Assembly: GCF_000300335.1 (NCBI RefSeq)
Contig: NZ_AMRM01000012.1
Span: 1 to 64,000 of the forward strand
From: Nitratireductor pacificus pht-3B
GTDB lineage: Bacteria; Pseudomonadota; Alphaproteobacteria; Rhizobiales; Rhizobiaceae
Length of the DNA stretch: 64,000 nucleotides
Direction: 5' to 3'
Shown one piece after another: positions 37,175 to 56,250 of this stretch. Within the stretch, counting starts at the first letter, position 1. Every line of letters starts with the position of its first letter. The notes beneath the pieces are model-generated. The model did no database searches. It was not told the origin of the DNA and saw nothing but the letters and a program-made list of their open reading frames with translations. A program made the translations under genes and the position numbers.

Positions 37175-37882
37175 CTAGCGCAGGTTCACCGAGTACTGGA
37201 TGTTCTGCGTCAGGCAGCGCGAGACGCGCAGCTCCACCGGCCGGCCCTCCAGGTCGCGCGCGACCCGGTGGATGCGCAGGAGCGGCGTGCCCGCGGCGCA
37301 CGCCAGATGGCCGGCGTCGGTCGCGCTCGCCGCGATCGCCTTGATGCTTTCCTCCGCCTGCGCGATCGTGATGCGCCAGCGGACCGAGAACATCTGGTAG
37401 ATGTTGTTGGGGATCTCGGCCATCTCCGGAAAATCCGGGAACCGCTCCGTCGGCAGCACGATGGTCTCCACGAGCACGCAGGCATCTGCCAGATGGCGGA
37501 GCCGCTCGATGCGCCACACGGGGTTTTTCTCCAGGATGTCCAGCGCCCGCGCCTCTTCGTAGCTGGCCGTGGACTCCGCGCGCGACAGCACCTGCGATTG
37601 CGGGAACACGGCCTGCCCGCCGTCAGGAACCAGTCGGAAGAACTGAAACAGGATGCGCGCGTCCTCGGGCTCGGCGACGAAGGTGCCCTTGCCCTGGCGC
37701 CGGATGAGGAGATTGTCGGCCGTCATCGTGTCCAGCGCTTTGCGCACGGTGCCCTGGCTGACTTCAAGCTGGCGCGCCAGCTCCATCTCGCTGGGGATCA
37801 GCATCCCCGGCGACCAGCTCCCGTCCACGAGGCGGCGCACCAGATGGTCGCGGATCTGCATGTAAAGCGGCTTGTATTCCAT
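37175..37882 (-). CDS. GntR-family regulator (HutC/UTRA class), probable regulator of suyAB
   Basis: 235 residues from the ATG at 37882 (MEYKPLYMQ); the frame runs on to 38014 through the operator. Winged helix 1-70 with recognition helix VSQGTVRKALD (about 41-51) and wing RRQGKGTFVAE. UTRA ligand domain: WRIERLRHLADACVLVETIVLP, FPEMAEIPNNIYQMFSVRW, LLRIHRVARDLEGRPVELRVSRC. It is a paralogue of the regulator at 49791-50582 over its full length, and the recognition helices are identical. Divergent from suyA, with TCTTATATAAGA between; probable repressor relieved by a sulfonate intermediate. Confidence 0.87.
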   Translation of the reverse strand: MEYKPLYMQIRDHLVRRLVDGSWSPGMLIPSEMELARQLEVSQGTVRKALDTMTADNLLIRRQGKGTFVAEPEDARILFQFFRLVPDGGQAVFPQSQVLSRAESTASYEEARALDILEKNPVWRIERLRHLADACVLVETIVLPTERFPDFPEMAEIPNNIYQMFSVRWRITIAQAEESIKAIAASATDAGHLACAAGTPLLRIHRVARDLEGRPVELRVSRCLTQNIQYSVNLR

Positions 37883-37925
37883 GGCGTCTCTCAACTGCGG
37901 TGCGGCCGGGCTGCCGCTTCCATAC

Positions 37926-37944
37926 CGGTAAATCCGGTTTACCG
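37926..37944. promoter_or_regulatory. Inverted repeat upstream of the UTRA regulator
   Basis: CGGTAAA (37926-37932) and TTTACCG (37938-37944) form a 7-bp dyad with a five-base spacer, 44 bases from the regulator start and just upstream of the suyA -35. It differs from the TCTTATATAAGA motif and may bind a second regulator. Confidence 0.5.
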
Positions 37945-37952: not shown

Positions 37953-38002
37953 TTGACAAATCCATTCTCTTCTAGCTTATATCTTATATAAGACATAAGT
38001 CT
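37953..38002 (+). promoter_or_regulatory. suyA promoter with TCTTATATAAGA operator
   Basis: A consensus -35 TTGACA (37953-37958) is followed after 17-18 bases by CTTATA/TTATAT (37976-37982). The perfect 12-bp palindrome TCTTATATAAGA (37982-37993) lies immediately after, at the expected transcription start, and a further dyad AGACATAAGTCT (37991-38002) overlaps its right edge. Occupancy would block initiation. Variants of the same motif sit on the sugar-module promoters at 49.7, 50.6 and 51.7 kb. Confidence 0.82.
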
Positions 38003-38045: not shown

Positions 38046-38333
38046 GTGACGGTTCCCCACCTGTTGGTTCATGAAAAGAAGGACAATGTCGGCGTCGTCG
38101 TCGTCGAAAACCTGAAAGCCGGCACGAAGATGCTCTGCGTGGTGACGCACGACAATTCGAGCTTCGAGCTGGAGGTGAACGACGACGTTCCGATCGGTCA
38201 CAAGGTGGCGCTGAGCGATATCGGCTCCGGCGACACGGCCATCAAGTACGGCGAGGACATCGGAAAGTTCGTCGCCGACGTGAAGAAGGGCGGCCATGTC
38301 CATGTCCATAATCTGAAGACCAAGCGCTGGTAG
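38046..38333 (+). CDS. suyA: (2R)-sulfolactate sulfo-lyase, small subunit SuyA
   Basis: 95 residues, GTG start at 38046 with AGGAG eight bases upstream. The whole protein is a SAF-type domain as found at the N-terminus of altronate/galactarate dehydratases ([60 protein letters not shown]). In altronate dehydratase this domain is fused; the separate small gene followed by a 393-residue partner is the SuyA/SuyB arrangement. The complex splits (R)-sulfolactate to pyruvate and sulfite. The downstream slc and comC genes support this over a sugar-acid dehydratase. Cytoplasmic. Confidence 0.85.
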
Positions 38334-38350: not shown

Positions 38351-39532
38351 ATGGCATCGAAATACGCAAACCTCACCTTCAAGGGCTACCGGCGCGACAA
38401 TGGCCGCGTGGGCGTCCGCAATCACGTCGTGATCCTGCCGGTGGACGACATCTCCAACGCCGCCTGCGAGGCGGTCGCCAACAACATCAAGGGCACGCTG
38501 GCGCTGCCGCATGCCTATGGACGCCTGCAGTTCGGCGCCGACCTCGACCTGCATTTCCGCACCATGATCGGAACCGGTGCCAATCCCAACGTCGCCGCCG
38601 TGATCGTCATCGGCATCGAACCGGGCTGGACCAAGCGGATCGCCGACGGCATCGCCGAGACCGGCAAGCCGGTGGCGGGCTTCTCGATCGAGCAGAACGG
38701 CGACCTGAAGACGATCATGGATGCCTCGCGCAAGGCGAAGGAATTCGTCCACTACGCATCCGAGCTGCAGCGCGAGGAATGCTCGATCTCTGAACTCTGG
38801 GTCTCCACCAAATGCGGCGAGAGCGACACGACCACGGGCCTCGGCTCCTGCCCGACCGTCGGCAACATGTATGACAAGCTCCTGCCCGAAGGCATCTACG
38901 GGTGCTTCGGCGAAACCTCGGAGATCACCGGCGCCGAGCACATCTGCAAGGCGCGGGCTGTCAACGACGAGGTCGGCGAGCGCTGGTACAAGATGTGGAA
39001 GGCCTATCAGGACGACGTCATCTTCGCCAACCAGACCGACGATCTTTCCGAATCCCAGCCCACCAAGGGCAATATCGAGGGCGGCCTGACCACCATCGAG
39101 GAAAAGGCGCTCGGCAATCTGGAAAAGATCGGCCGGACGTCGAAATACATCGACATTCTCGAGCCGGCGGAGGCGCCGCAGTCGGGCAAGGGTCTCTACT
39201 TCATGGACACGTCTTCGGCCGCCGCCGAATGCGTGACCCTGATGGCCGCGGGCGGCTATGTGGTGCACACCTTCCCGACCGGCCAGGGCAACGTGATCGG
39301 CAATCCGATCGTACCGGTCATCAAGATCACCGCGAACCCGCGCACCGTGCGCACCATGGGTGAGCATGTGGATGTCGACGTGTCGGGAATCCTGCGCCGC
39401 GAGATGACCATCGACGATGCCGGCGACGCGCTGATCGACATGATCGTGCGCACGTCCAACGGGCGGAACACCGCCGCCGAGGCGCTGGGTCACCGCGAAT
39501 TCGTGATGACCAAACTCTACCGAAGCGCCTGA
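38351..39532 (+). CDS. suyB: (2R)-sulfolactate sulfo-lyase, large subunit SuyB
   Basis: 393 residues, 17 bases after suyA. UxaA/GarD-type C-terminal domain: [107 protein letters not shown]. The Cys residues of KCGESD and GSCPTVGN are probable iron or iron-sulfur ligands. These stretches match SuyB of sulfolactate degraders as I remember them, more closely than altronate dehydratase. With SuyA it releases sulfite; a sulfite oxidation or export gene is not visible in the window. Confidence 0.85.
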
Positions 39533-39539: not shown

Positions 39540-39570
39540 GAGGCCCCGCGCGTTGCGGGGCCTCGCCGTT
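39540..39570 (+). terminator. Intrinsic terminator after suyB
   Basis: GAGGCCCCGC (39540-39549) pairs with GCGGGGCCTC (39555-39564), a perfect 10-bp stem, followed by GCCGTTTT. It separates suyAB from the transporter genes, so the latter may depend on read-through or on their own promoter. Confidence 0.85.
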
Positions 39571-39630
39571 TTCCATCGCCTGACGAGCAGGCGATGGCGA
39601 TACGCTTCAGGAAATCATGGGAGGATGACA

Positions 39631-40608
39631 ATGCTGAAGAAACTTGGGCTGAAGAAACTCGGGCAGAAAAAACTTGGCGTACTGGCGACCGTAGCCACGG
39701 TCCTCTGGGCAACGGGCGGCGCATTCGCGTTTCCGGACAAGCCCGTCAACTACATCATTCCGTTCAATGCCGGCGGCGAAAGCGATATTTCCGCCCGCCT
39801 GCAGCAACCCTATTTCAAGAAGATCACCGGAGACGACCTGATCATCCAGTATCAGGCGGGTGCCGGCGGCGCGCAGGCCTGGTCCGTGCTGAACGACCAG
39901 CCGGGCGACGGCTACACGATCATGGGCACCAACCTGCCCCACATCATCCTGCAGCCGCTCCTGCAGAAGCCGGGATACGAGACCGCCGACCTGACGAACA
40001 TCTACATGTTCCACTTCACGCCGGATGCGCTTCTCGTCCGCGCGGACAGCAAGTTCGAAACGATCCAGCAGGTGATCGACGCGGCGAAGGAGACCCCCGG
40101 GGCGCTGACGGTCGGCGGCACGGCGACCAACACGGCGAACCACATCGCCAACCAGCGCTTCTCGACCTTGACCGGCGCCGAGATGACATACATCCCCTAC
40201 ACCGGCACCGGCGCCACCATCCCCGCGCTGCTCGGCGGCGAGGTCGAACTGCTCTGGGGCTACACCACCGTGGCCGCCGGTCAGGGCGACAAGGTGCGCA
40301 TGCTGGCCGTCGCACAGGACAAGCGGCATCCCCTCTTCCCGGACGTTCCGACCTTCAAGGAACTGGGGATCGACATGGTGGGCGGCGCCTATCGCGGCAT
40401 CGCCGTGCCGAAATCCACGCCCGAGGAGGTGCGCCAGCAGCTCTCCGACATCATCGGCCAGATCAATGCCGACCCCGAATTCATCAAGGAGATGGAACAG
40501 GCGGGCTTCGCCATGCTGGATGTTCCCTATGACGGGATGGAAGCCTTCATGGGCGAGCGGCAGAAGATCTACGAGGACGTGGCCCGTCAGCTGGGCTCGC
40601 TGAAGTAA
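39631..40608 (+). CDS. slcH: TTT-family transporter binding protein (TctC type), probable SlcH
   Basis: 325 residues from the ATG at 39631, six bases after GGGAGG; the ATG at 39625 abuts the ribosome site. Signal peptide about 1-29 containing a threefold repeat of (L/Q)KKLG, encoded by near-identical 15-base units. TctC/Bug family: FPDKPVNYIIPFNAGGESDISAR, AGAGGAQAWSVLN, VGGTATNTANHIANQRF, YTGTGATIPALLGGEVELLWGY. Such proteins bind carboxylates. In sulfolactate degraders the TctCBA-like transporter is called SlcHFG; the context supports sulfolactate as ligand. Confidence 0.82.
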   Translation: MLKKLGLKKLGQKKLGVLATVATVLWATGGAFAFPDKPVNYIIPFNAGGESDISARLQQPYFKKITGDDLIIQYQAGAGGAQAWSVLNDQPGDGYTIMGTNLPHIILQPLLQKPGYETADLTNIYMFHFTPDALLVRADSKFETIQQVIDAAKETPGALTVGGTATNTANHIANQRFSTLTGAEMTYIPYTGTGATIPALLGGEVELLWGYTTVAAGQGDKVRMLAVAQDKRHPLFPDVPTFKELGIDMVGGAYRGIAVPKSTPEEVRQQLSDIIGQINADPEFIKEMEQAGFAMLDVPYDGMEAFMGERQKIYEDVARQLGSLK

Positions 40609-40677: not shown

Positions 40678-42198
40678 TTGGCCTTCGATCTCGGTTCCGT
40701 TCTCGTCCAGGCTTTCAGCCCGTTCAATCTCTTGCTGGCTCTGCTCGGTGTTGTCCTCGGCACGATCATCGGCGCGCTGCCGGGGCTTTCCGCGACGATG
40801 GCCATCGCCGTCCTGGTACCGTTCACCTTCGCCATGGATCCGGCCTCCGGCCTGATCATGCTGGGCGCGATCTACACCGGCGCCATCTATGGCGGCGCCT
40901 ATGCCGCCATTCTCGTCAACACGCCGGGCACGCCCTCGGCCATCGCCACCACCTTCGACGGTTTCCCGATGGCCAAGCGCGGCGATGGCGATCTGGCGAT
41001 GACGCTCGCCACGCTCGCCAGCGTGGTCGGCGGCGTGATCGGCGCCATCGCGCTGATGACGCTTTCGCCGCTTCTCGCCAACATCGCGCTGGCCTTCCAG
41101 TCAAGCGAGTATTTCTGGCTCGCGATTCTCGGCCTGACCCTGATCGCCAGCCTTTCCACCGGCAACGTCATCAAGGGCCTGATCGGCGGCGCCTTCGGCC
41201 TGATCCTGTCCATGATCGGCGTGGCGGTCGTCGGCGGCGACGTGCGCTTCACCTTCGGCTCGTCGGCGCTGCTCGGCGGCATCGACATCGTTTCCGCCCT
41301 GATCGGACTCTACTGCATTCCCGTCCTGATCGATCTCGTCGCCCGGCCCGACCGGCATCTGGAGCCGGCGCCGCTCGGGCGCGGCTTCCGCTTTTTCGAG
41401 GCGCTGGGCCTCTGCGCGAAGAACACGGTCAATCTCGTCAGGTCCTCCGCCATCGGCACGCTTATCGGCATCCTGCCGGGGGCCGGCGGCTCGATCGCAT
41501 CGCTCGTCTCCTATTCGGAGGCGCGGCGCTCGAGCCGCCATCCCGAGCGTTTCGGCAAGGGAGAACCGGGCGGCCTTCTGGCCACCGAAAGCGCCAACAA
41601 CGCGACCGTCGGCGGCGGCTTCATCCCGACGCTGGTGCTCGGCATTCCCGGCACTCCGCCGGACGCGGTCATCCTCGGCGCGCTCCTCGTCCAGGGCATC
41701 CGCACCGGACCCGAACTGTTCACCCAGCAGAGCGGCATCGTCTACATCTTCATGTTCGGCCTGCTCATCGCCACGCTGATGATGCTGCCCGTCGGCCTGC
41801 TCATCGGCCGCTACGCCTATCGCTTCATCGTCAACACGCCGAAATCGCTGCTCGTGCCCCTGATCGCCTTCATGACGGTGGTGGGCAGTTTCGCCATCCA
41901 TTCCAACCCGCACGATGTCGTGGTCATGGTCCTGATGGGCGTTCTGGGGTGGCTGCTCAGCCTCGGCGGTTTCGGCCCCTCGCCCATCGTGCTCGGCCTG
42001 GTTCTCGGCCAGATCGCCGAGCAGGGCTTCATCCGCGCCTACATGATCGGCGGCGCACGCGACAATTTCGGCGGGCAGCTCCTGTTTGACCGCCCGATCA
42101 GCTGGGCCATCGTGGCGCTGATCGTCATCACGCTCGGCCTGCCGCTCCTGAGGCTGCTGCGCGCAAGGTCCGGCAACGGCAAGGAGGCACAACCATGA
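40678..42198 (+). CDS. slcG: TTT-family transporter large permease (TctA type), probable SlcG
   Basis: 506 residues from a TTG start at 40678, with AGGGAG eight bases upstream. About 11-12 membrane segments. TctA signatures: LLGVVLGTIIGALPGLSATMAIAVLVPFTF near 22, GAIYTGAIYGGAYAAILVNTPGTPSAIATTFDGFPMA near 63, and the inverted-repeat copy GTLIGILPGAGGSIASLVSYSEARR with GFIPTLVLGIPGTPPDAVILGAL. Inner membrane. The gene order C-A-B differs from the usual C-B-A. Confidence 0.87.
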   Translation: MAFDLGSVLVQAFSPFNLLLALLGVVLGTIIGALPGLSATMAIAVLVPFTFAMDPASGLIMLGAIYTGAIYGGAYAAILVNTPGTPSAIATTFDGFPMAKRGDGDLAMTLATLASVVGGVIGAIALMTLSPLLANIALAFQSSEYFWLAILGLTLIASLSTGNVIKGLIGGAFGLILSMIGVAVVGGDVRFTFGSSALLGGIDIVSALIGLYCIPVLIDLVARPDRHLEPAPLGRGFRFFEALGLCAKNTVNLVRSSAIGTLIGILPGAGGSIASLVSYSEARRSSRHPERFGKGEPGGLLATESANNATVGGGFIPTLVLGIPGTPPDAVILGALLVQGIRTGPELFTQQSGIVYIFMFGLLIATLMMLPVGLLIGRYAYRFIVNTPKSLLVPLIAFMTVVGSFAIHSNPHDVVVMVLMGVLGWLLSLGGFGPSPIVLGLVLGQIAEQGFIRAYMIGGARDNFGGQLLFDRPISWAIVALIVITLGLPLLRLLRARSGNGKEAQP

Positions 42199-42668
42199 AC
42201 GCGGGCAGGGATATCGCCGGGATCGTCGGCTCAGTCTTCTTCTTCCTCGTCGGGGCAGCGGTTTTCGCCATGAGCTTCGAGATGACGCCGCTGGCGGCCA
42301 TGTTCCCGCGCACGGTGGGCGCCGCGCTCGCGCTTCTTGCCGCATTCTATGTCTTCGCCGCCATGCGCGGATATCGCGGCGAGGCCGTCGAGAACGGCAG
42401 CACGGTCGGCGATCAGGCTGAGGGCCTCGGCCGCCGCATCGTCCTGCTGGCGACGATGATCGGCTGGGCGCTCCTCTTCCCGGTCATCGGCATGTTCGTC
42501 ACCAGTCTCGCCGCCTGCGCGATCCTGATGTTCACGGGCCTTTTCGAACGGCTGTCGCCCGGACGCCTCGCCATCCAGCTTGGCGCGGTGCTCGCGCTCG
42601 TGATCTGCTTCTATCTCCTGATGAACAGCGTTCTCAACATACCGATGCCACGCGGCATTCTCTTCTGA
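42195..42668 (+). CDS. slcF: TTT-family transporter small permease (TctB type), probable SlcF
   Basis: 157 residues with four membrane segments, ATG overlapping the slcG stop by four bases. TctB features: FFFLVGAAVFAMSFEMTPLAAMFPRTVGAALALLA and LLFPVIGMFVTSLAACAILM, with a C-terminal NSVLNIPMPRGI. Partner of the large subunit. Confidence 0.82.
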   Translation: MNAGRDIAGIVGSVFFFLVGAAVFAMSFEMTPLAAMFPRTVGAALALLAAFYVFAAMRGYRGEAVENGSTVGDQAEGLGRRIVLLATMIGWALLFPVIGMFVTSLAACAILMFTGLFERLSPGRLAIQLGAVLALVICFYLLMNSVLNIPMPRGILF

Positions 42669-42679: not shown

Positions 42680-43609
42680 ATGACGGACATCATCATCACG
42701 GAATTCATGGACGAGGCGGCGGTCGACATGCTGCGCGCGGAATTCGACACGCATTACGATCCCGCATTGGTGGACGATCCCGGGGCGCTGCGCGACATGG
42801 TCGCCACGGCGCGGGCGCTGGTGGTGCGGAACCGCACCCAGCTGCGCGGCGCGCTCCTAGAGGCCGCCGGCCGGCTGGAATGCGTCGGGCGTCTCGGCGT
42901 CGGGCTGGACAACATCGACACCGATACCTGCGGCGCGCGCGGCGTGGCCGTCTATCCTGCGACGGGCGCCAACGATCTGGCTGTCGCCGAATATGTGATC
43001 TCCAATGCGTTCAACCTCCTGCGCGACGCCTATCTCTATAGCGACCGGGTGATCGCCGGCGAATGGCCCCGTTCGGCGCTCATCGGGCGCGAGCTTTCCG
43101 GCAAGGTGATGGGCCTCGTCGGCTTCGGCGCGATCGCCCGCGAGGTGGCGACGCGCGCGCAGGCGCTCGGCATGTCGGTCATCGCCCATGATCCGTTCCT
43201 GCCGGAGAATCATCCGGCCTGGCAATCGGCGGGCAGGCGCACGCTGGAGGCGCTCGTCCGCGAGGCGGACGTGGTGAGCCTGCATACGCCCCTGACGCCC
43301 GAGACGCGGCACATGATCGACGCATCGCTGCTCGCGGCCATGAAGCCGGGAGGCATCCTGATCAACGCGGCCCGTGGCGGCGTGGTGGACGAGGACGCCT
43401 TGTGCGCGGCCCTGCGGGCGGGCAAGCTCGCCGGCGCGGCGCTCGACGTCTTCGAGGAAGAGCCGCTTTCGACGGCGGCAGGCACGAAGTTCGAAGGCAT
43501 CCGCAATCTGGTTCTGACGCCGCACATCGCCGGCGTAACAGTGGAATCGAATGTTCGGGTCAGCCGCGTCACGGCCGAGACCATTCTCAAGCACCTGCGG
43601 GGTCAGTGA
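42680..43609 (+). CDS. slcC: (S)-sulfolactate dehydrogenase SlcC (D-2-hydroxyacid dehydrogenase family)
   Basis: 309 residues. N-terminal ITEFMDEAAVDML and VVRNRTQLR, RLGVGLDNIDTDTC, VYPATGANDLAVAEYV and GEWPRSALIGRE match the (S)-sulfolactate dehydrogenase of Chromohalobacter as I remember it. NAD-binding motif GLVGFGAIAREVA near 145; catalytic Arg232 (INAARGG), Glu in DVFEEEPL and His282 (TPHIAGV). It oxidises (S)-sulfolactate to sulfopyruvate. With ComC it converts the S enantiomer to the R form that SuyAB cleaves. Stop overlaps the comC start (TGATG). Confidence 0.86.
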   Translation: MTDIIITEFMDEAAVDMLRAEFDTHYDPALVDDPGALRDMVATARALVVRNRTQLRGALLEAAGRLECVGRLGVGLDNIDTDTCGARGVAVYPATGANDLAVAEYVISNAFNLLRDAYLYSDRVIAGEWPRSALIGRELSGKVMGLVGFGAIAREVATRAQALGMSVIAHDPFLPENHPAWQSAGRRTLEALVREADVVSLHTPLTPETRHMIDASLLAAMKPGGILINAARGGVVDEDALCAALRAGKLAGAALDVFEEEPLSTAAGTKFEGIRNLVLTPHIAGVTVESNVRVSRVTAETILKHLRGQ

Positions 43610-44607
43610 TGACGAGACTTCTCTCCGCCGATGAGATCACGGCGCTGGTCACCGAGACGCTGATTCGCTGCCGCACCAGCCGGGAGAACGCGCAGGCCGT
43701 GGCGCGCGCCCTGCTCGGCGCAGAGCTGGCGGGCCAGGCGGGCCACGGACTTCGCCGCATGCCCTCCTATTGCGCGCAGGCGCTGTCAGGCAAGGTGGAC
43801 GGCATGGCCGCCGCGCGTTCCAGGGAAACGCGGCCCGCCGCCCTCTCGGTCGACGCCGCGCACGGTTTCGCCTATCCCGCGCTGGAGCTGGCGCTCGCAT
43901 GGCTGCCCGCCGCCGCCCGGCGGAACGGCATCGCCATGGCCGGCATCCACCGCTCGCATCATTGCGGCGTGGCGGGTCTGGTGGTCGAGCAGCTCGCGGA
44001 GGACGGGCTGGTCGGCCTTCTGTTCGCCAACACGCCCGGCGCCATGGCGCCATGGGGCGGCCGGCACGCCCTGTTCGGCACGGACCCGATCGCCTTCGCC
44101 GCGCCGCTTGACGGCGCCGATCCCGTGGTCGTGGACATCTCCCTGTCGAAGGTCGCCCGCGGCAAGATCATGGCGGCCAGCCAGCAAGGCAGGGACATCC
44201 CCGAGGGCTGGGCGCTCGATGCGAACGGCAACCCGACCACCGACGCGAAGGAAGCGCTGAAGGGCACGATGGTGCCGATGGGCGACGCCAAGGGCACGGC
44301 GCTCGCGATCATGGTGGAGCTGCTCTGCGCCGGGCTGACCGGCGCCAATTACGGCTACGAGGCCAGCTCCTTCTTCGACGGCGAGGGCGCCGCGCCGGGC
44401 ACCGGCCAGCTCGTCATCGCCATCGATCCCACGGCGTTCGGCGATGGCGCGCTGGACCGTTTCGCGGTTCTGGCCGGGGCCATCGACGGAATGGACGGCG
44501 CACGCCTTCCCGGCCGACGCCGGCAGGCGCTCAAGGCGAGGCTGCTTGCCGAAGGCGTGCCCTGCGACGACGCCCTGCTGCGGGAGATCGAGGCGCTGGG
44601 CCGGTAG
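43609..44607 (+). CDS. comC: (R)-sulfolactate dehydrogenase ComC (malate/L-lactate dehydrogenase family)
   Basis: 332 residues from the ATG at 43609. Ldh_2/MDH family fold: AELAGQAGHGLRRMPSYCAQALSGK near 34, VDAAHGFAYPALELAL, IHRSHHCGVAGLVVEQLAEDGLVGLLFANTPGAMAPWGG (catalytic His region), FGTDPIAFAAPL and VVDISLSKVARGKI. Members reduce 2-oxo acids with NAD(P)H using a fold unlike ordinary lactate dehydrogenase. Next to slcC and suyAB it is best read as ComC, which reduces sulfopyruvate to (R)-sulfolactate. Last gene of the rightward sulfolactate cluster. Confidence 0.85.
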   Translation: MTRLLSADEITALVTETLIRCRTSRENAQAVARALLGAELAGQAGHGLRRMPSYCAQALSGKVDGMAAARSRETRPAALSVDAAHGFAYPALELALAWLPAAARRNGIAMAGIHRSHHCGVAGLVVEQLAEDGLVGLLFANTPGAMAPWGGRHALFGTDPIAFAAPLDGADPVVVDISLSKVARGKIMAASQQGRDIPEGWALDANGNPTTDAKEALKGTMVPMGDAKGTALAIMVELLCAGLTGANYGYEASSFFDGEGAAPGTGQLVIAIDPTAFGDGALDRFAVLAGAIDGMDGARLPGRRRQALKARLLAEGVPCDDALLREIEALGR

Positions 44608-44629: not shown

Positions 44630-44759
44630 GTTGTGCGTGGTTCGACAAGCTCACCATGAGGGATGCCGGGCATTGCAGTGAGTCCGGCTCCGTAGCGGCG
44701 CGGGTAAGTCATGCAGCCCCCACCCGTCCTCATGGTGAGCTTGTCGAACCACGCACAAC
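44630..44759. repeat. Inverted-repeat element with 32-bp perfect arms
   Basis: The arms are 44630-44661 and 44728-44759; each contains GTGGTTCGACAAGCTCACCA or its complement and they pair perfectly over 32 bases. The 66-base interior is GC-rich. GGTTCGACAAGCTCACCATGAGG-type units are dispersed repeats in many alphaproteobacterial genomes, so this is likely a miniature repeat pair, lodged between two gene clusters that run toward each other. It could fold into a long RNA hairpin. Confidence 0.85.
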
Positions 44760-49730: not shown

Positions 49731-49763
49731 ACTCTTATAACTCTTATATATGAATTCCGTCAA
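49731..49763 (-). promoter_or_regulatory. Promoter and operators of the NagB-like/TRAP operon
   Basis: Reading leftward, -35 TTGACG (49763-49758) and -10 TTATAA (49740-49735) are 17 bases apart. Two direct copies of ACTCTTATA (49731-49739 and 49740-49748 on the + strand) cover the -10 and the spacer. They are half-sites of the TCTTATATAAGA operator seen at suyA, so the same class of repressor should act here. Confidence 0.8.
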
Positions 49764-49790: not shown

Positions 49791-50582
49791 CTATCGAAGA
49801 TCCGAGGCATAGTGGAACTGCTCGGTAAGGCACCTGCTGCGGCGCAGCTCGACCAGCGCCCCGTTGAGGGCGAATGCCTGGCGATCGATCTGCAGCACCG
49901 GCATGTGCTCGGAGCAGCCCAGCACGTCCGCATCCTCGGCGGAGGCGGCCACCGCCCGAAGCTGTTCGGCGGCGCGCGTGACGGTCGTCACGAAATGCCG
50001 CTCGTACAGCTCGTAGATGTTGTTCGGCAGCGGTACATGCACGTCGAGACCCGGGAACCGATCCGCCGAAAGCACGATCTGCTCGCTGAGCATGACCCGT
50101 CCCTTCAGCGCGCGGTGGCGGACAATGCGCCAGACGTCACCCTTCGGGCGCAGACCAAGCAGTCTGCTTTCCGAAGCGCTCGGCTCGGCCCGTTTCAGCT
50201 GGCTGTAGACGGTTTCCGGCAGAACCCGGTCACCCTTGTCGTCGGCGATCTTGAAGAACTGGAAGAGCGTGCGCCGCTGGTCGTGCTCCGCCACGAACGT
50301 GCCGCGACCCTGGTGGCGGACGACGATGCGGTCCGCCGACAGCGCGTCGAGCGCCTTGCGGACAGTGCCCTGCGACACGCCCATCTGCACCGAAAGCTGC
50401 TGTTCGGAAGGCAGCAGCGTGCCGGGCTGCCACTCCCCCGAGATCAGCTTGTCCAGAAGCTGCTGCCGGACCTGCATGTAAAGGGGAGTGTATCCGAGCT
50501 GCATGCCCGCGCGCCCGGACGAAGATGAAACGGAGGCGGTCGCGGCTCCGGTTCCGCCGTTGCCATCATTGCTGTCGGTCAC
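49791..50582 (-). CDS. GntR-family regulator (HutC/UTRA class) of the sugar module
   Basis: 263 residues if the GTG at 50582 is used; a TTG at 50594 and an ATG at 50504 (MQLGYTPLYMQ) are alternatives, and the latter aligns best with its paralogue. The extra N-terminus is a Ser/Gly/Ala-rich linker. Winged helix with recognition helix VSQGTVRKALD and wing RHQGRGTFVAE; UTRA domain with WRIVRHRALKGRVMLSEQIVL, PLPNNIYELYERHFV and LQIDRQAFALNGALVELRRSRC. Paralogue of the regulator at 37175-37882, identical in the recognition helix. Divergent from the mutarotase gene. Confidence 0.86.
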   Translation of the reverse strand: MTDSNDGNGGTGAATASVSSSSGRAGMQLGYTPLYMQVRQQLLDKLISGEWQPGTLLPSEQQLSVQMGVSQGTVRKALDALSADRIVVRHQGRGTFVAEHDQRRTLFQFFKIADDKGDRVLPETVYSQLKRAEPSASESRLLGLRPKGDVWRIVRHRALKGRVMLSEQIVLSADRFPGLDVHVPLPNNIYELYERHFVTTVTRAAEQLRAVAASAEDADVLGCSEHMPVLQIDRQAFALNGALVELRRSRCLTEQFHYASDLR

Positions 50583-50594
50583 GCCTATGTCCAA

Positions 50595-50610
50595 ACTCTT
50601 ATATAAAAGT
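50595..50610. promoter_or_regulatory. Operator between the UTRA regulator and the mutarotase gene
   Basis: ACTCTTATATAAAAGT is a 16-bp dyad with a single mismatch (ACTYTTATATAARAGT). It covers the regulator's 5' end and is the most symmetrical relative of the TCTTATATAAGA site at suyA. Autoregulation is likely. Confidence 0.8.
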
Positions 50611-50690: not shown

Positions 50691-51692
50691 ATGCAGCGTC
50701 GGGTGATTGGCTCGTTCGAGGGACGGGACGTGGAGGAAGTCGTTCTCTCCTCGCGGGAGGGGGTTCGGGTCGCCATCATGACCTATGGGGCGGCGATCCG
50801 CGACTGGCAAGTGCCGGTCGGCGGCACGTTGCGATCGGTCACGCTGGGTTTCGACGACTTCGATTCCTACCCGAAGCACAGCCCCTATTTCGGCGCCGTC
50901 GCCGGTCGGGTGGCGAACCGCACCGCCGGCGCCGCGTTCATGCTCGATGGGCGGCTGCATCGCCTTGTCGCCAATGAGGGAAGCAACCATCTGCATGGCG
51001 GGCCGCGCGGCGTCGGCAAGCAGGTCTGGCGCATCGAGGACCATGACGGCGCCTCCGTAAAGCTCTCCCTGGAAAGCCCCTATGGCGACATGGGATATCC
51101 CGGCGCGCTCGCCATCGCGGTCCGCTACCGCCTGACCGGGCACCGGCTCGAAATCACCTTCACCGCCGATCCGTCCTGCCGGACGCCGGTCAATCTGGTG
51201 CAGCACAACTACTTCAACCTGATGGGACGCGGCGATGTGCTCGATCACCGGCTAAAAATCGAGGCCGGCGCCTATACGCCGGTCGGCGAGGGCCAGGTCG
51301 CCACGGGCGCGATCCTCCCCGTCGACGGCACGAGCTACGACTTCCGGACGGAAAAGACCCTGCGCGACGGTGACGGGGAGCCGCTGTCCTTCGACCACAA
51401 TCTCGTGCTCGACACGCGCCGCGACCGCGCGCAGCCCGCCGCAATCCTCACCGCGCCGGATGGGTCGCTGTCGCTGCGCCTCTTCACCGACCAGCCGGGC
51501 ATCCAGGTCTACAATGGCTGGAAGCTCAACGTTCCCGCGCTAGGGCTGGCAGGAGCGCGCTACGAAGCGTTCGGCGGCGTGTGTCTCGAGGACCAGAATT
51601 TCCCCGGCTCACTCAACCATGCGCATTTCCCGAACCCCTTCGTGGAGCCGGGCGCGCCCTACCGGCATCGCTGCGCCATCGAGATCGGCTGA
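50691..51692 (+). CDS. Aldose 1-epimerase (GalM-family mutarotase)
   Basis: 333 residues from the ATG at 50691, seven bases after GGGAGGA. GalM fold: GAAIRDWQVPVGG, GAVAGRVANRTAGAAFMLDGRLHRLVANEGSNHLHGGPRG (in parts, about 65-105), catalytic His in VQHNYFNLMG and catalytic Glu in VCLEDQNFPGS. It equilibrates alpha and beta anomers of a free sugar. In the E. coli sulfoquinovose cluster YihR belongs to this family, so a mutarotase beside a YihV-like kinase and YihT-like aldolase is notable. Cytoplasmic. Confidence 0.88.
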   Translation: MQRRVIGSFEGRDVEEVVLSSREGVRVAIMTYGAAIRDWQVPVGGTLRSVTLGFDDFDSYPKHSPYFGAVAGRVANRTAGAAFMLDGRLHRLVANEGSNHLHGGPRGVGKQVWRIEDHDGASVKLSLESPYGDMGYPGALAIAVRYRLTGHRLEITFTADPSCRTPVNLVQHNYFNLMGRGDVLDHRLKIEAGAYTPVGEGQVATGAILPVDGTSYDFRTEKTLRDGDGEPLSFDHNLVLDTRRDRAQPAAILTAPDGSLSLRLFTDQPGIQVYNGWKLNVPALGLAGARYEAFGGVCLEDQNFPGSLNHAHFPNPFVEPGAPYRHRCAIEIG

Positions 51693-51711: not shown

Positions 51712-51784
51712 TCTTGTAAAAGACATATGAATATCCTATAGAAGAATTCTGACATATCAGAATGTCAGATTCCTATATAAGAGT
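51712..51784 (+). promoter_or_regulatory. Promoter with three operator variants before the PfkB kinase
   Basis: Three variants of the motif occur: TCTTGTAAAAGA (51712-51723), TCCTATAGAAGA (51734-51745) and TCCTATATAAGA (51771-51782). A promoter TTGTAA (51714-51719) / TATAGA (51737-51742), spacer 17, is covered by the first two; the third overlaps the ribosome site of the kinase (ATG 51790). A separate dyad CTGACAT...ATGTCAG (51749-51768) lies between. Confidence 0.8.
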
Positions 51785-51789
51785 TCTCG

Positions 51790-52695
51790 ATGGCTCGCAT
51801 CCTGACCCTCGGCATGGCCGTTCTCGACCATGTGTTCCAACTCCCTGCTTTTCCCGAAAGCGGCGAGAAATACCGCGCGGAGAGCTACCGCGCTCAGATC
51901 GGCGGGCCGGCGACCGTCGCGGCGCTGGCGATCCAGCGGCTGGGCGGCTCGGCGAGCCTGTGCGCCCGCCTCGGCGAAGACGCCAACTCGCGGACCATCA
52001 TGGCGGAACTCGACGCCGCGGGCGTGGACTGGTCGCCCTCGGTCGTTCTGCCGGGTGCTGTCGCCCCGGTTTCGGCGGTCTATATCGACGAGGACGGCGA
52101 ACGGCAGATCGTGAACTTTCGCGGCAAGGACCTCGCCGTTTCCGCCGACATGCTGAGCGAAAGCCTGCTGGATGGCGTGGACGCGGTCCTGCTCGATCCG
52201 CGCTGGCCCGAAGGGGCCGAGCGCCTCGCCGCCCTGGCCGCCAGGCGGGGCATCCCGTCCGTGCTCGACGCTGAAAGCGATCTGGAGGCGCTCGAGGGCG
52301 CCATGGCGCTCTGCACGCACATCGCCTTCTCCACCCAGGGGCTGCGCAGCTATTCGGGCGAGGAGGACGTGGTGCTCGGCCTCAAATACTGCGCCGAACG
52401 CTTCAAGGCCTGGCTCGGCGTGACCCATGGCGAGAAGGGCGTGATCTATCTGGACCAGGGCGGCGTCGCGCATGTCGCGGCCTTTGCCGTGCGCACGCTG
52501 GACACGCTGGGTGCCGGCGATGTCTGGCACGGCGCCTTCGCGCTGGGCCTCGGCGAGGGGCGTTCGGTCTTCCAGGCGGTGCGGTTCGCCAATGCGGCGG
52601 CCGGCCTCAAATGCATGAACGGCACCGGTCAGGAAGCCCTGCCGGGGCGCGAGGAAACGCTCGCGCTGATGACCGGCGGCGGCACGCTGCATTGA
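51790..52695 (+). CDS. PfkB-family sugar kinase, YihV-like (candidate sulfofructose kinase)
   Basis: 301 residues. Ribokinase/PfkB fold: QIGGPATVAALAIQRLGG near 36 and DTLGAGDVWHGAFALGLGEG near 238 with catalytic Asp244. It resembles E. coli YihV (6-deoxy-6-sulfofructose kinase) as I remember it: ESGEKYRAESY near 23, VNF near 108, DAVLLDPRWPEGAERL near 131. Lys27, Asn109 and Arg138, placed in the sulfonate pocket of YihV in my recollection, fall at the same positions; Lys27 and Arg138 are also used by Pfk-2 for phosphate, so they show only that an anionic C6 group is plausible. Start of the rightward kinase-aldolase-isomerase-dehydrogenase operon. Confidence 0.82.
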   Translation: MARILTLGMAVLDHVFQLPAFPESGEKYRAESYRAQIGGPATVAALAIQRLGGSASLCARLGEDANSRTIMAELDAAGVDWSPSVVLPGAVAPVSAVYIDEDGERQIVNFRGKDLAVSADMLSESLLDGVDAVLLDPRWPEGAERLAALAARRGIPSVLDAESDLEALEGAMALCTHIAFSTQGLRSYSGEEDVVLGLKYCAERFKAWLGVTHGEKGVIYLDQGGVAHVAAFAVRTLDTLGAGDVWHGAFALGLGEGRSVFQAVRFANAAAGLKCMNGTGQEALPGREETLALMTGGGTLH

Positions 52696-52725: not shown

Positions 52726-53760
52726 ATGAGCGTATCAGCCGGAAAATACTGGGGGCTTCGCCGCATGGCGGATGCCGCCGGGCGTTTCAAGATGACGGCG
52801 GTCGACCAGCGCCCCCCGATCAAGAACCCCATCGCCAAGGCGCGCGGAACCGCCGAGGCGCCCTATGACGACGTGGCGCAATTCAAGCGCCTTCTCGTAG
52901 AGACGCTGCAGGACCAGTCCACCGCCCTCCTGCTCGATCCGCATTTCGCCTATCCGCGCGCCGTCGATGTCCTGTCCCCGCAGAAGGGGCTGATCCTCAC
53001 CCTGGAGGATTCTCTGTTCGAGGAAACGCCGGGCGGGCGGATTTCCTCGGAAATCGACAACTGGTCCGTCGGCAAGATCAAGCGCGCCGGCGGCGACGCC
53101 GTGAAGGTTCTGGCCTGGTACCGGCCCGACGCCGCGGCCGAAATCCGCCAGGCCCAGCAGGCCTTCACGCGCCGGATCGGCGAAGCCTGTGCGCGCTACG
53201 ACATTCCCTTCCTGTTCGAGCTGCTCGTCTACCCGCTGGCCTCCGATGCGGAGCAGACGCGGGACTATGTGGAGATGAAGACCAAGCGCGCCGATCACGT
53301 CCTCGCCAGCGTCGAGGAATTCGCCCGACCGGAATACGGGGTGGACGTGTTCAAGCTGGAGAGCCCGGTCGCGGCAGGTGATCTCGAAAACGATACGATC
53401 GACGTGGCGGGCCTGTTCCGCGAGATGGGGCGGCTTGCCGGCAGGCCCTGGGTCATGCTTTCGGCGGGTGCGGGCAAGCCGGAATTCGAGACCATCCTGC
53501 GGCACGCCTATGCCGCCGGCGCCTCCGGCTATCTCGCCGGTCGCGCGATCTGGCTGGACGCCTTCGCGCATTTCCCGGACTGGCAGCGGATAGAGGAAGG
53601 CCTGCGCGGTGACGCCGTCGCCTATATGGAGCGCATCAACCGCCTGACCGACGACCATGCGCAGCCCTGGTTCGACCACCCGCGCTTTGCCGGCCAGAAG
53701 CTTTTCGCGCCGGACGATGCCGGGTTCCGCGCCGTTTACCCGGAATTCGACCATGGCTAG
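52726..53760 (+). CDS. LacD/YihT-family class I ketose-phosphate aldolase
   Basis: 344 residues, GGGGAG six bases before the ATG at 52726. TIM-barrel Schiff-base aldolase: AGRFKMTAVDQRPP near 19, ALLLDPHFAYPRAV, SVGKIKRAGGDAVKVLAWYRPDA, VDVFKLESPVAAG with probable Schiff-base Lys210, PWVMLSAGAG, ASGYLAGRAIW with anion-binding Arg273. This is the family of tagatose-1,6-bisphosphate aldolase (LacD) and of YihT, which splits 6-deoxy-6-sulfofructose 1-phosphate into DHAP and sulfolactaldehyde. It is longer than YihT (292 aa) by a 20-residue insert (about 35-55) and a C-terminal tail. Following the kinase, it should cleave the kinase product. Confidence 0.84.
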   Translation: MSVSAGKYWGLRRMADAAGRFKMTAVDQRPPIKNPIAKARGTAEAPYDDVAQFKRLLVETLQDQSTALLLDPHFAYPRAVDVLSPQKGLILTLEDSLFEETPGGRISSEIDNWSVGKIKRAGGDAVKVLAWYRPDAAAEIRQAQQAFTRRIGEACARYDIPFLFELLVYPLASDAEQTRDYVEMKTKRADHVLASVEEFARPEYGVDVFKLESPVAAGDLENDTIDVAGLFREMGRLAGRPWVMLSAGAGKPEFETILRHAYAAGASGYLAGRAIWLDAFAHFPDWQRIEEGLRGDAVAYMERINRLTDDHAQPWFDHPRFAGQKLFAPDDAGFRAVYPEFDHG

Positions 53761-55147
53761 AAAGTTGGGCCTGTTCGTCCTCGGGCGCGCCACCTTCGAC
53801 GTGGACTACGCGCGCGCCTGCGCCGCGCGTGCGGTCGAGGTCTTGCGCATGCAGGACTGCAGGCTTGCCGGAACCGGCGCGATCCTCTTCGACAATGCCG
53901 AGGTCACGGCGGCGCTGGACGATATCGCGGAGGAAAAACTGGACGGCATCGTCGTCGTGCAGAGCACCTTCACCGACGCGGAAGCCGTCTGCATGATCGC
54001 CGAGCGGACGGGACTGCCGCTCTACATCTGGGCGCTTCCGGAACCGCGCACCGGCGGACGCCTGAGGCTCAATGCCTTCTGCGGCCTCAATCTGGCGGCG
54101 CACGCGCTCGGGTTGAGGAACGTGCCCTGCATCAGCCTCTACGCGGCACCGGATGCGCCCGCCATCGAAACCGAAATCGCCGGCTGGCTCGCGGCGGAAC
54201 CCGCCGCGCCGCCCCGGACACGCGTGGCGGAGCCTGTTCCCTCCGAGGCGGGAGCGAGGGGGCTGGACGCCCTGCGGGGCGCCCGCATCGGACGCATCGG
54301 CGCCCATCCGGCGGGCTTCGATACCTGCGCCTATGAGCCGGCGCGCCTGTCAAGGCTTTGCGATGCCCATGTGGAGCCGGTGGCGCTCGAGGACCTGTTC
54401 GCCGCCGCCCGCGAAGTGCCGGACAGCGCCGTCGGCGCGCTTCTGGAGGAATGCTCCGCCGTCTCGGGGATCGGCGAACTCGACCCGGACCAGCTCCTTC
54501 GCTCGCTCCGGCTCAAGGGCGCCCTGGATGCGCTGAAGGAACGGGGACGGTTCGACGGCTTTGCCCTGCGCTGCTGGCCGGAGACCTTCACGGAATATGG
54601 CGGCGCCATCTGCGGTCCTGTCGGCATGATGGGAGAGAAGCGGACGCCCTGCGCCTGCGAGGCCGATGTCTACGGCGCCCTCACCTCGCTGATGCTGCAG
54701 GCGCTTTCGGACGCTCCGGCGTTTCTGGCCGACATCGTCGACATCGACGATGCCACGGATACGGGCGTCGTCTGGCACTGCGGTCAGGCCCCCGCCTCGA
54801 TGGCCGATCCGGCAGCGCCGCTGGAGGCGACGATACACTCCAACCGCCGCATGCCCCTGCTGTTCCAGTTTCCGCTGAAGCCGGGGCGCGTCACGCTGGC
54901 GCGCATCAGCCAGGCGCGCGGCGCGCAATCCATGGTGGTGGCAGGCGGCGAGATGATCGCCGCACCGCCCTCCTTTTCGGGAACGTCCGGTGTCGTGCGC
55001 TTCGACACCGCGGCGAAGACAGTCCGGCAGCGCCTCCTCGCTGCCGGACTGGAACATCATCTCGCCCTCGTCTACGGCGACCATCGCGATGCGCTCGAAC
55101 ACGTCGCGCATGGCCTCGGCCTGCCTGTTCTGGATCTCACGCAATGA
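53753..55147 (+). CDS. L-fucose/L-arabinose isomerase-like protein
   Basis: 464 residues, overlapping the aldolase stop by eight bases. Two domains: an N-terminal Rossmann-like part (LGLFVLGRATFDVDYA, DGIVVVQSTFTDAEAV) and a C-terminal FucI-type domain with the metal/catalytic pattern: ALRCWPETFTEYGG, CACEADVYGALTSLMLQALS (Glu and Asp), DIVDIDDATDTGVVWHCGQAP (Asp, His). Such proteins interconvert aldoses and ketoses with Mn2+, though many relatives have unknown substrates. Within this operon it is the natural candidate for making the ketose used by the kinase; as I recall, some described sulfoquinovose isomerases come from this superfamily. Coupled to the next gene by an ATGA overlap. Confidence 0.83.
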   Translation: MARKLGLFVLGRATFDVDYARACAARAVEVLRMQDCRLAGTGAILFDNAEVTAALDDIAEEKLDGIVVVQSTFTDAEAVCMIAERTGLPLYIWALPEPRTGGRLRLNAFCGLNLAAHALGLRNVPCISLYAAPDAPAIETEIAGWLAAEPAAPPRTRVAEPVPSEAGARGLDALRGARIGRIGAHPAGFDTCAYEPARLSRLCDAHVEPVALEDLFAAAREVPDSAVGALLEECSAVSGIGELDPDQLLRSLRLKGALDALKERGRFDGFALRCWPETFTEYGGAICGPVGMMGEKRTPCACEADVYGALTSLMLQALSDAPAFLADIVDIDDATDTGVVWHCGQAPASMADPAAPLEATIHSNRRMPLLFQFPLKPGRVTLARISQARGAQSMVVAGGEMIAAPPSFSGTSGVVRFDTAAKTVRQRLLAAGLEHHLALVYGDHRDALEHVAHGLGLPVLDLTQ

Positions 55148-56250
55148 CCATAAGATACGCCATCATCGGCTCCGGCATGATGGGCCAGGAACACATCCGC
55201 AATCTCGCGCTGGTGGAGGATGCGAAGATCGTCGCCATCGCCGAGCCCGATGCGGCGATGCGCGCCGCGGGTGCGGCGCTGGCCGGCCCGGGCGTCGCCC
55301 TCCACGCCGACATGCGCGATCTGCTCGGCAGCACCGATGCGGACGCGTTCCTGGTCGCCTCGCCCAACCACACCCATGCCGACATCCTCGACCGGCTGAT
55401 CGACGACGGGCGCCCTGTGCTGATCGAGAAGCCCGTGGTGAAGGACCTAGCGCAGGCCAGGCGCATTGCCGCCAAGGCACGCGAGGCCCGTGCGCCGATC
55501 TGGGTGGCGATGGAATACCGCTACATGCCCGGGGTCTCCCGGCTGCTGGAGGAACTGCGGGCCGGGCGCTCCGGAGAACTGAAGATGGTCTCGATCATCG
55601 AGCGCCGCTATCCCTTCCTCGAGAAGGTCGGTTCATGGAACCGGTTCAACGCCTCTTCCGGCGGGACGCTGGTGGAGAAATGCTGCCACTTCTTCGACCT
55701 GATGCGGCTGATGACCGGCAGCGAGCCGGTCCGCGTGCAGTCCATCGGCGGCCAGGCAGTCAACCATCTGGACGAGCGCTACGACGGCAGGGTGCCGGAC
55801 GTTCTCGACCATGCCTTCACCCTCGTCGAGTTCGCCAACGGCGTCAGCGCCATGCTCGAACTGTGCATGTTCGCGGAAGGCTCGCATTTTCAGGAGCGCG
55901 TCAGCGCCATCGGCACCAGCGCCCTGCTCGAGGCGCGCGTGCCCGGCCCCGGCCGGTTCGAACCCGACGGCCGGCACAAGAATGCCGAATTCGTCGTGGC
56001 GCGCCGGGACACGCGCGCCGAAACGGTCGAGACCATCGAGGTCGATCCCGAGCTTCTGAAGCGCGGGGACCATCACGGTTCGACCTTCATCCAGCACCAG
56101 CGCTTCAACAGGATGCTGCGCGAGGGCGGTGAGCCGGACGTCTCCCTGTCCGACGGCCTGAAGGCAGTCGTCATGGGACTGGCGGCGCAGGAGTCCATCC
56201 TGAGGCGCGGCAGCGTCGATATCGGAACCGGCGACTACCGCGTGGAATAG
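55144..56250 (+). CDS. Gfo/Idh/MocA-family dehydrogenase
   Basis: 368 residues. Rossmann motif AIIGSGMMGQEH near 6, EKPVVKD with catalytic Lys96, AMEYRYMPG, and GGTLVEKCCHFFDLM with His182 and Asp185. The family oxidises or reduces sugars and inositols with NAD(P). Last gene of the operon. It could oxidise a sugar intermediate or C1/C3 position; a role on sulfolactaldehyde is not supported by family precedent. Confidence 0.88.
   Translation: MTIRYAIIGSGMMGQEHIRNLALVEDAKIVAIAEPDAAMRAAGAALAGPGVALHADMRDLLGSTDADAFLVASPNHTHADILDRLIDDGRPVLIEKPVVKDLAQARRIAAKAREARAPIWVAMEYRYMPGVSRLLEELRAGRSGELKMVSIIERRYPFLEKVGSWNRFNASSGGTLVEKCCHFFDLMRLMTGSEPVRVQSIGGQAVNHLDERYDGRVPDVLDHAFTLVEFANGVSAMLELCMFAEGSHFQERVSAIGTSALLEARVPGPGRFEPDGRHKNAEFVVARRDTRAETVETIEVDPELLKRGDHHGSTFIQHQRFNRMLREGGEPDVSLSDGLKAVVMGLAAQESILRRGSVDIGTGDYRVE

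Follow-up and report, generated by a model that had tools for sequence, protein, structure and literature searches.

We analysed 64,000 nucleotides of the genome of Nitratireductor pacificus pht-3B (hereafter the window), which lie on contig C12 of a genome of 4.47 Mb (estimated completeness 99.98%) and in which positions 37175-56250 hold an island of genes that appears to join the breakdown of a sulfonated sugar, probably sulfoquinovose, to the desulfonation of sulfolactate. All gene families named for this island in an initial annotation, made from the sequence alone, were recovered inside it by Pfam and NCBIfam searches. At its left end, a GntR/UTRA regulator (regulator 1, minus strand, 37175-37882; Pfam GntR and UTRA; the listed open reading frame, ORF, runs to 38014 with a likely start at 37882) is followed on the plus strand by suyA (38046-38333, GTG start) and suyB (38351-39532, GD_AH domains), which by homology encode the putative small and large subunits of sulfolactate sulfo-lyase. 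The next three plus-strand genes, initially labelled slcHGF, are present and are more exactly a TctC/TctA/TctB set according to Pfam: a TctC-type, slcH-like binding protein (39553-40608) with TctA-type (40678-42198) and TctB-type (42195-42668) permeases. Two predicted dehydrogenases complete this half on the same strand, an SlcC-like (S)-sulfolactate dehydrogenase with 2-hydroxyacid dehydrogenase domains (42680-43609) and a ComC-like (R)-sulfolactate dehydrogenase (43609-44607).

The sugar half begins on the minus strand with a tripartite ATP-independent periplasmic (TRAP) transporter, made up of the binding protein DctP (44876-45937), identified by its PDB match and its counterparts in relatives' clusters, the large permease DctM (45995-47362; Pfam DctM) and the small permease DctQ (47366-48001; Pfam DctQ, listed ORF to 48217). 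Also on this strand are genes for a ChbG/YdjC-family deacetylase (47998-48852; Pfam YdjC), for a NagB-like protein without the phosphate ligands of NagB (48855-49706, listed ORF to 49763; named from NCBIfam, PDB and residue comparisons) and for a second GntR/UTRA protein (regulator 2, 49791-50594; Pfam), a paralogue of regulator 1 by pairwise identity. The plus strand then carries the aldose-1-epimerase (mutarotase) gene galM (50691-51692; Pfam Aldose_epim, listed ORF from 50619), the YihV-like sulfofructose kinase gene pfkB (51790-52695), a class I DeoC/LacD-family aldolase of its own lineage (52726-53760), a putative SftI/SqvD-like sulfoquinovose isomerase (53753-55147) and a predicted GH188-type, nicotinamide adenine dinucleotide (NAD+)-dependent sulfoquinovosidase (55144-56250). 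The nearest match to the window in the named genome collection, locus L049 of an uncultured Nitratireductor metagenome-assembled genome (on the same contig as genome G006, which a genome search placed in the genus of the window genome), keeps this gene order between regulator 1 and the isomerase, the proteins being 78-98% identical, and its contig stops within the GH188 gene.

The best PDB match of the kinase is the sulfofructose kinase 7ag6 (176 bits), followed by an unnamed 'sugar kinase' (2rbc, 146 bits) and the best ribokinase (102 bits); identity to YihV is 34%, and the LacC match has an E value of 0.14. In a tree of 19 rows, where the outside rows LacC, RbsK, FruK and PfkB are long branches, the window kinase falls in a 15-row clade with YihV that is split from RbsK at 98/99 support, and LacC joins FruK and PfkB. 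Within this clade, which includes Devosia and Shinella members without assigned function, it sits beside the kinases of relatives and not next to YihV. All three of K27, N109 and R138, which we take to be the sulfonate contacts of YihV, are kept in the window kinase, and the full set is found in none of LacC (V/L/S), RbsK (T/I/E), FruK (V/N/S) and PfkB (K/V/S). On match, tree and residues, the kinase therefore groups with YihV and not with LacC, as the initial annotation had proposed and as the phylogenetic check it suggested bears out.

The aldolase required a revision. Its initial description as LacD/YihT-like holds as far as the class I DeoC/LacD family is concerned (domain PF01791; the position of the catalytic lysine, K193 in YihT, is conserved in all 16 aligned sequences), and it is neither a YihT orthologue (26% identity) nor a member of the LacD clade. 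Identity is 29-31% to LacD and rises to 52-68% with the aldolases encoded in isomerase clusters of relatives from other genera. The tree places it in a 13-row group (84/74) apart from LacD and YihT and outside the LacD pair (100/99), with long branches that leave the deep order unsure, and its 127.5 bits on the LacD equivalog model TIGR01232 do not reach the cut-off of 432. We posit that it represents a third lineage, neither YihT nor LacD, which in relatives lies beside YihV-, CsqR-, YihQ- or GH188-like genes. The firm grouping with tagatose enzymes that the initial annotation had named as contrary evidence was not found for the kinase; for the aldolase it was found in part, in its NCBIfam name and in LacD being nearer than YihT, yet the tree sets it apart from both.

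The isomerase, initially described as FucI-like, does carry a fucose isomerase C-terminal domain and is more precisely SftI/SqvD-like, its sole NCBIfam match at 1e-5 being SftI (NF048012, 236.6 bits), on which four comparator isomerases score 258-343 bits. The final gene had been read as a dehydrogenase, and the window had been said to lack a sulfoquinovosidase. Its product matches PDB entries 8zn9, 8qc3 and 8qc2 at 332-382 bits, with the next structure at 84, and 8qc2 is a GH188 structure (PMC11465081; this and the other papers cited by accession enter here as partial texts). In an HMMER alignment to 8qc2 (chain offset 13, ArSqgA numbering), all eight of the catalytic, sugar and sulfonate residues checked from PMC10755693 are identical in the window, comprising the ArSqgA contacts K107, Y136, E189, H193 and H321 and the sulfonate contacts R166, L170 and K172. 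A ninth residue, Glu163, was left uncounted, as at that offset position 163 of 8qc2 is Val and position 164 is Glu, the latter as in the window. Because of the structure matches and the eight residues, we assign a sulfoquinovosidase-type gene of the NAD+ kind to the window, with hydrolysis as its predicted activity; the earlier statement was wrong. For DctP, the best PDB match is the isethionate-binding DctP 8t9t, by the small margin of 121 bits to 108 for the next, and identity is 42-46% to the DctP proteins adjoining relatives' isomerase clusters. In a tree, the TRAP binding proteins group together whether or not their clusters contain the ChbG/NagB-like pair, with the window's second TRAP protein set apart from them.

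The isomerase was found at E<=1e-30 in seven of 385 genomes of the class, N. pacificus included, and the six other loci were all read over about 19 kb. A YihV-like kinase lies near the isomerase in all six, and an aldolase in five (L048 being the locus without one). Four have a GH188-like gene and the other two a YihQ-like gene (26-27% to YihQ); a CsqR-like regulator is present in four (34-49%), a succinate-semialdehyde dehydrogenase (SSADH) in three, and an SlcC-like gene in five, at 57-59% identity to that of the window in four and 37% in the fifth (the homologue in genome G444 is 61% identical). Of all the evidence on the substrate, this combination of sulfoquinovose markers weighs most. 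The window island differs in its UTRA regulators, in having no CsqR match and in carrying no SSADH gene, unlike three of the six clusters.

Further clusters with related genes were seen on plasmids. A sulfo-EMP2-like cluster lies on the small Zymomonas mobilis plasmid pZZM402 (L021, 128-11361), with genes for an SftI-like isomerase, class II aldolase, mutarotase, GH188-like protein, SSADH, major facilitator superfamily transporter and TonB receptor. On a Candidatus Chlorohelix plasmid (L022, 5422-15592), an SftI-like isomerase, a phosphofructokinase and an SSADH stand beside nitrite/sulfite-reductase-like and siroheme genes, a possible link between sulfosugar and sulfite. A Shinella sp. HZN7 plasmid (L101, 5075-11240) holds genes for a YihV-like kinase (44%) and a 51% identical aldolase together with SSADH, SDR, mandelate-racemase family and TSUP transporter genes, which could represent a further sulfosugar route. 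In another phylum, a Deinococcus peraridilitoris plasmid (L100, 3835-9217) combines a YihQ-like gene (28%) with genes for a FucI-like isomerase, a PfkB kinase and a 35% identical aldolase from the same family.

In the sulfolactate half, SuyA and SuyB share 48% and 69% identity with a pair encoded within the hpsN/hpsO cluster of Cupriavidus pinatubonensis HN-2 (the studied strain is JMP134), and so make up a UxaA-type pair of two subunits with homologues in a species whose SuyAB has been studied. SuyA gave no Pfam match at 1e-5 when translated from 38067, and SuyB matches a single NCBIfam model, galactarate dehydratase, with 137 of 731 bits. The names SlcC and ComC rest on family and context, the second protein being filed as ComC-like; the best PDB match of this protein is 1wtj (201 bits), with the L-sulfolactate dehydrogenase 2x06 at 127 bits. 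The initial annotation had found no sulfolactaldehyde dehydrogenase in the window; there is none in the island, and a genome search then gave a candidate on contig C6. Nineteen stretches of the N. pacificus genome match the SSADH of the Zymomonas cluster, of which 12 were compared further: the product of C6:138748-140172 is 65-69% identical to the SSADH copies of relatives' clusters, and none of the other eleven exceeds 49%. In the reverse search, the C6 dehydrogenase was most similar, in all six cluster genomes, to a copy that lies within the cluster or immediately next to it (64-67%), and five further copies listed at E<=1e-130 in four of these genomes are 45-57% identical. We regard C6:138748-140172 as a candidate sulfolactaldehyde dehydrogenase only.

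Both halves carry one operator family, as initially claimed. With up to two mismatches allowed, the pattern TCTTATATARRA occurs 14 times in the window, where 0.58 occurrences would be expected; 12 of the 14 are in the island (six places, each on both strands) and two lie at about 7960, outside it. Exact copies occur at three places in the 4.47 Mb genome, all in the island: upstream of suyA (TCTTATATAAGA, 37982-37993, with the same core in L049), in the gap between regulator 2 and galM (50597-50608) and upstream of pfkB (51771-51782, with weaker sites at 51734 and 51712). One mismatch adds two further island places, one upstream of pfkB and one upstream of the NagB-like gene (49742-49753, same letters in L049), and six places elsewhere in the genome; the reversed pattern, as a whole-genome control, gave 7 matches versus 16. 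The three exact sites served to define the pattern and were therefore bound to be recovered; the absence of exact copies from the rest of the genome is not built in. One operator family thus marks suyA, galM, pfkB and the NagB-like operon; as the upstream part of the NagB-like ORF covers its operator, this gene most likely starts at TTG 49706 and not at 49763. Neighbours were inspected at two of the six outside places, on C22, where the adjacent ORFs look like gyrA and a MarC-type gene, and on C28, where they look like an amino-acid ATP-binding cassette (ABC) system, and both sites seem unrelated to the dehydrogenase.

The two regulators share 47% identity over 237 amino acids. Regulator 1 is 51% identical to the regulator adjoining suyAB in Sinorhizobium mexicanum (L108), where the same operator motif lies between regulator and suyA; within about 20 kb, no isomerase, kinase or aldolase of the window type was seen, and an SSADH was. 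As the strain is listed among sulfofucolytic gene clusters in the available part of PMC12421959, its module may also serve a sulfosugar. We infer that the sulfolactate regulator and operator are the older element and were later copied onto the sugar module.

Taken together, this analysis suggests, with a probability of roughly 80%, that the island encodes a hybrid sulfo-Embden-Meyerhof-Parnas (sulfo-EMP)/sulfo-EMP2 pathway in tandem with sulfolactate mineralisation by SuyAB. Sulfoquinovose and its glycosides would enter through the TRAP transporter, the GH188 enzyme would liberate sulfoquinovose from glycosides, and the mutarotase and SqvD-type isomerase would yield sulfofructose. The YihV-like kinase would then form sulfofructose 1-phosphate, which the class I aldolase would split into dihydroxyacetone phosphate (DHAP) and sulfolactaldehyde. 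For oxidation to (S)-sulfolactate, the best candidate is the GabD-type enzyme encoded on contig C6; SlcC and ComC would convert (S)-sulfolactate to the (R) form through sulfopyruvate, and SuyAB would release pyruvate and sulfite. External sulfolactate would also be usable through the Tct transporter, and the two paralogous GntR/UTRA regulators would act on one operator family observed at four promoters, with binding predicted. A side entrance may be provided by ChbG and the NagB-like protein, through which an N-acetyl amino sulfosugar would be deacetylated and then deaminated and isomerised to sulfofructose. The route from sugar to DHAP and sulfolactaldehyde, and on through sulfolactate to pyruvate and sulfite, was already proposed in the initial annotation and is supported in outline, with the identities of aldolase, isomerase and sulfoquinovosidase corrected. 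That the island would hold nearly all of the steps from the plant sulfolipid sugar to pyruvate and sulfite, jointly controlled, is largely supported by these comparisons. If so, one alphaproteobacterium would do alone a job often described as split between sulfoglycolytic and sulfonate-degrading organisms, and the island would suggest how duplication of a sulfolactate regulator captured a sugar module.

Several observations weigh against this hybrid pathway. The isomerase stays under the equivalog cut-off of NF048012 (700 bits), and it is filed here as SftI-like and not as SftI. The aldolase, besides not being orthologous to YihT, exceeds the NCBIfam subfamily cut-off of PRK12858, tagatose 1,6-diphosphate aldolase (338 over 184), and has as its best PDB match 8tnf (341 bits), named only as a DUF2090 protein. 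The top NCBIfam match of the ComC-like protein, NF040650 (L-sulfolactate dehydrogenase), scores 198 bits against a cut-off of 500. The C6 dehydrogenase passes the general SSADH model (663 over 646), is nearer to PDB 3jz4 (629 bits), which we take to be the succinate-semialdehyde dehydrogenase GabD of E. coli, than to 8c54 (554 bits), presumably the sulfolactaldehyde enzyme RlGabD, and has no operator nearby in the whole-genome pattern search; for these reasons it is possibly a housekeeping enzyme. Finally, in genomes G544, G642 and G394, suyB lies on a different contig from the sugar cluster.

The pathway of the initial annotation gave no role to the deacetylase and NagB-like genes it had listed, both of which are present, and neither has one in the published sulfoquinovose routes compared, as far as their partial texts extend. 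The best NCBIfam and PDB matches of the NagB-like protein are glucosamine 6-phosphate (GlcN6P) deaminases, and it is below the Pfam cut-off. It shares with NagB the D72 and H143 positions, and position 148 is acidic (D or E); D141 is replaced by T or N (T in N. pacificus). R172 and K208, which we take to bind the 6-phosphate in NagB, are T and Q in all seven of N. pacificus, G006, Marivivens, G544, G642, G459 and Zipacnadia, R and K in Vibrio nigripulchritudo, and G and H in Haloarcula. The GGT loop, two residues shorter than in NagB, is shortened in all of these proteins, that of V. nigripulchritudo and also the second NagB-like protein of N. pacificus included, and does not discriminate, since relatives that keep R172 or K208 have it too. 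In ChbG, the DDVG, G[VI]H and HLDAHMG motifs, presumably the Asp/His/His metal site, are kept in six of six proteins compared.

NagB-like orthologues are rare: in a set of 60 genomes that contains N. pacificus, G006 is the sole other genome with a close copy (87%); they occur in four of 345 genomes of the Marivivens family, G444 included, and the genome collection gave three loci, two of which are those of G006 and G444. The ChbG/NagB-like pair directly adjoins sulfosugar genes in N. pacificus, G006, G544 and G642; in G444, pair and sulfosugar genes are on two contigs, both broken inside dctP. Pair and sulfosugar module are co-located in two families. Beside the NagB-like gene, a MauG-type peroxidase and a PhyH-family gene were seen at L017 (3054-5607, ORF reading) and L063 (3720-6378, Pfam), and about 2 kb past it in G642 (L062, 12646-15573) lie genes for the sulfoacetaldehyde acetyltransferase Xsc (949 bits against a cut-off of 676) and for a member of the acetate kinase family. 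Three comparisons were set aside: the V. nigripulchritudo relative (32%), dropped as sulfosugar support since its gene belongs to a nucleoside operon and both R172 and K208 are retained; GH188-like and CsqR-like matches in Haloarcula (L020), which are weak (28-30%); and an AlphaFold model of the NagB-like protein from a four-sequence alignment (mean predicted local distance difference test score of 61.2 in the best of five, residues 180-242 below 50).

A 6-sulfonate is an isostere of a 6-phosphate, and N-acetyl-sulfoquinovosamine (2-acetamido-2,6-dideoxy-6-sulfo-glucose) one of N-acetylglucosamine (GlcNAc) 6-phosphate; sulfoquinovosamine is a component of the Haloarcula hispanica N-glycan. We tentatively propose, at less than even odds, that ChbG deacetylates N-acetyl-sulfoquinovosamine and that the NagB-like protein, with its rebuilt pocket, deaminates and isomerises the product to sulfofructose, which would be the first catabolic route for an amino sulfosugar. 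This would account for the gene company, the operator and the pocket of the pair, and leaves G459, Zipacnadia and the Haloarcula relatives unexplained; a pocket that lacks R172 and K208 could equally fit a substrate with no acidic group at C6. Instead, the substrate of the pair might be an amino sugar of the ordinary or O-sulfated kind (GlcNAc, GlcNAc-6-O-sulfate or chitobiose), with only transporter and regulon in common with the sulfosugar genes, a serious possibility that we hold not far short of even. G459 speaks for it and against the amino sulfosugar, as it has the NagB-like gene, ChbG and a TRAP system of the same family, no aldolase in its genome at E<=1e-3 and no SuyB orthologue (best 33%), with a partial sulfatase-family ORF about 570 bases from the NagB-like ORF. 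So do a 52% NagB-like homologue in Zipacnadia (L018), whose genome has no aldolase, the position of Haloarcula homologues (33-36%) in an ABC sugar cluster, and the absence of a NagB-like gene from all six isomerase-cluster genomes of the class sample; with G459, that last absence makes the pair an optional companion, not an essential part. A GlcN6P route is opposed by the loss of R172 and K208, and sharing of the regulon alone by the contiguity described above, the G444 contig breaks inside dctP and the sulfosugar operator upstream of the NagB-like gene. To our knowledge, amino sulfosugars are not known as bacterial growth substrates; if the N-acetyl-sulfoquinovosamine proposal is true, a class of natural sulfosugar would be newly seen as bacterial food, with a pointer to its sources. 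Such a branch was not found in the literature searched, a weak absence given that only open-licence papers were covered; the 'dideoxy-6-sulfo' term in the text available from PMC13372026 denotes KDSG (2-keto-3,6-dideoxy-6-sulfogluconate), an intermediate of the sulfo-Entner-Doudoroff (ED) pathway, and its use in PMC12890257 is assumed to be the same.

The other alternatives concern the island as a whole. That its halves are independent neighbours, the sulfolactate module serving external sulfolactate and cysteate while the C3 sulfonate of the sugar module is exported, would fit the module's own Tct transporter, the separate contigs of suyB and sugar cluster noted above and the S. mexicanum module, which has the same operator and lacks the sugar genes nearby; we consider it unlikely in view of the common operator and paralogous regulators across both modules, the SlcC-like gene in relatives' sugar clusters, the same fused order in a second species and the possible sulfosugar role of the S. 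mexicanum module itself. We judge it quite unlikely that the island degrades a different 6-deoxy-6-sulfo hexose, for example sulfofucose by way of sulfotagatose 1-phosphate: the aldolase is closer to tagatose-bisphosphate aldolases than to YihT, and Paracoccus has PF00294 and PF01791 homologues in its SuyAB gene cluster, which are not raised on sulfofucose (PMC12421959, partial text), but the SftI-like isomerase, the GH188 residues including the C4-OH contact E189 and the YihQ-like genes of two relatives point to sulfoquinovose. Ordinary tagatose- or fucose-type catabolism that merely adjoins sulfolactate genes is very improbable; the names alone would suggest it (a LacD-type aldolase above its NCBIfam cut-off, a fucose isomerase C-terminal domain, a PfkB kinase), against a kinase residue set absent from LacC, RbsK, FruK and PfkB, kept GH188 residues and the CsqR- and YihQ-like genes of relatives.

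Elsewhere in and around the island, a 31-base inverted repeat resembling repetitive extragenic palindromic (REP) elements lies between comC and dctP (44631-44661 and 44728-44758), as a single pair in the window, and was not seen in the matching stretch of L049. Positions 29000-37100, beside the island, hold ABC transporter genes, a flavin adenine dinucleotide (FAD) oxidoreductase, an aminotransferase and an FCD regulator, partly named from ORFs. The aminotransferase could supply sulfopyruvate from cysteate; no homologue of it or of the FCD regulator was seen beside UTRA regulator 1 in L049.

Compared with sulfo-EMP as found in the E. coli yih genes and in Arthrobacter AK01, the island shares a YihV-type kinase, a class I aldolase and a mutarotase of the aldose-1-epimerase family, and with the AK01 pathway also a GH188 enzyme (PMC10755693, partial text). 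It differs in its FucI-type isomerase, in an aldolase of another lineage and in taking the sulfonate on to sulfite, and the window has no YihS, YihQ, YihU or CsqR match at 1e-5. With sulfo-EMP2 it has the SqvD-type isomerase in common (PMC9594981, PMC12890257, extracts), and not SqiK (PF00365) or SqiA (PF01116), in place of which stand a PF00294 kinase and a PF01791 aldolase. The Paracoccus wurundjeri sulfofucolytic-sulfolactate sulfolyase pathway likewise sets an SlcC/ComC/SuyAB half in tandem with a sulfosugar module and, like the island, has a sulfolactaldehyde dehydrogenase that is not pinned down; its upper half is ED-type for sulfofucose, whereas that of the island is EMP-type (PMC12421959, in the part available). 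Nearest in gene content among the published sets compared are the actinobacterial GH188-Y160 clusters, for which the extract of PMC11465081 gives a sulfolactaldehyde dehydrogenase, a phosphoglycerate-dehydrogenase-like protein, sulfolactate sulfo-lyase, sulfofructose 1-phosphate aldolase, sulfofructose kinase, fucose isomerase and GH188. The island, from a different phylum, carries Leu in place of Tyr at the L170 position, has transporters of the TRAP and Tct types where the clusters have ABC, and contains ChbG, NagB-like and UTRA regulator genes in addition. EMP/EMP2 hybrid sets are described in Proteobacteria (PMC9594981, PMC12890257) and SuyAB-extended pathways for sulfo-transaldolase (sulfo-TAL) clusters (PMC9594981), again in partial texts, and these close precedents make the island a variant of a known pathway type.

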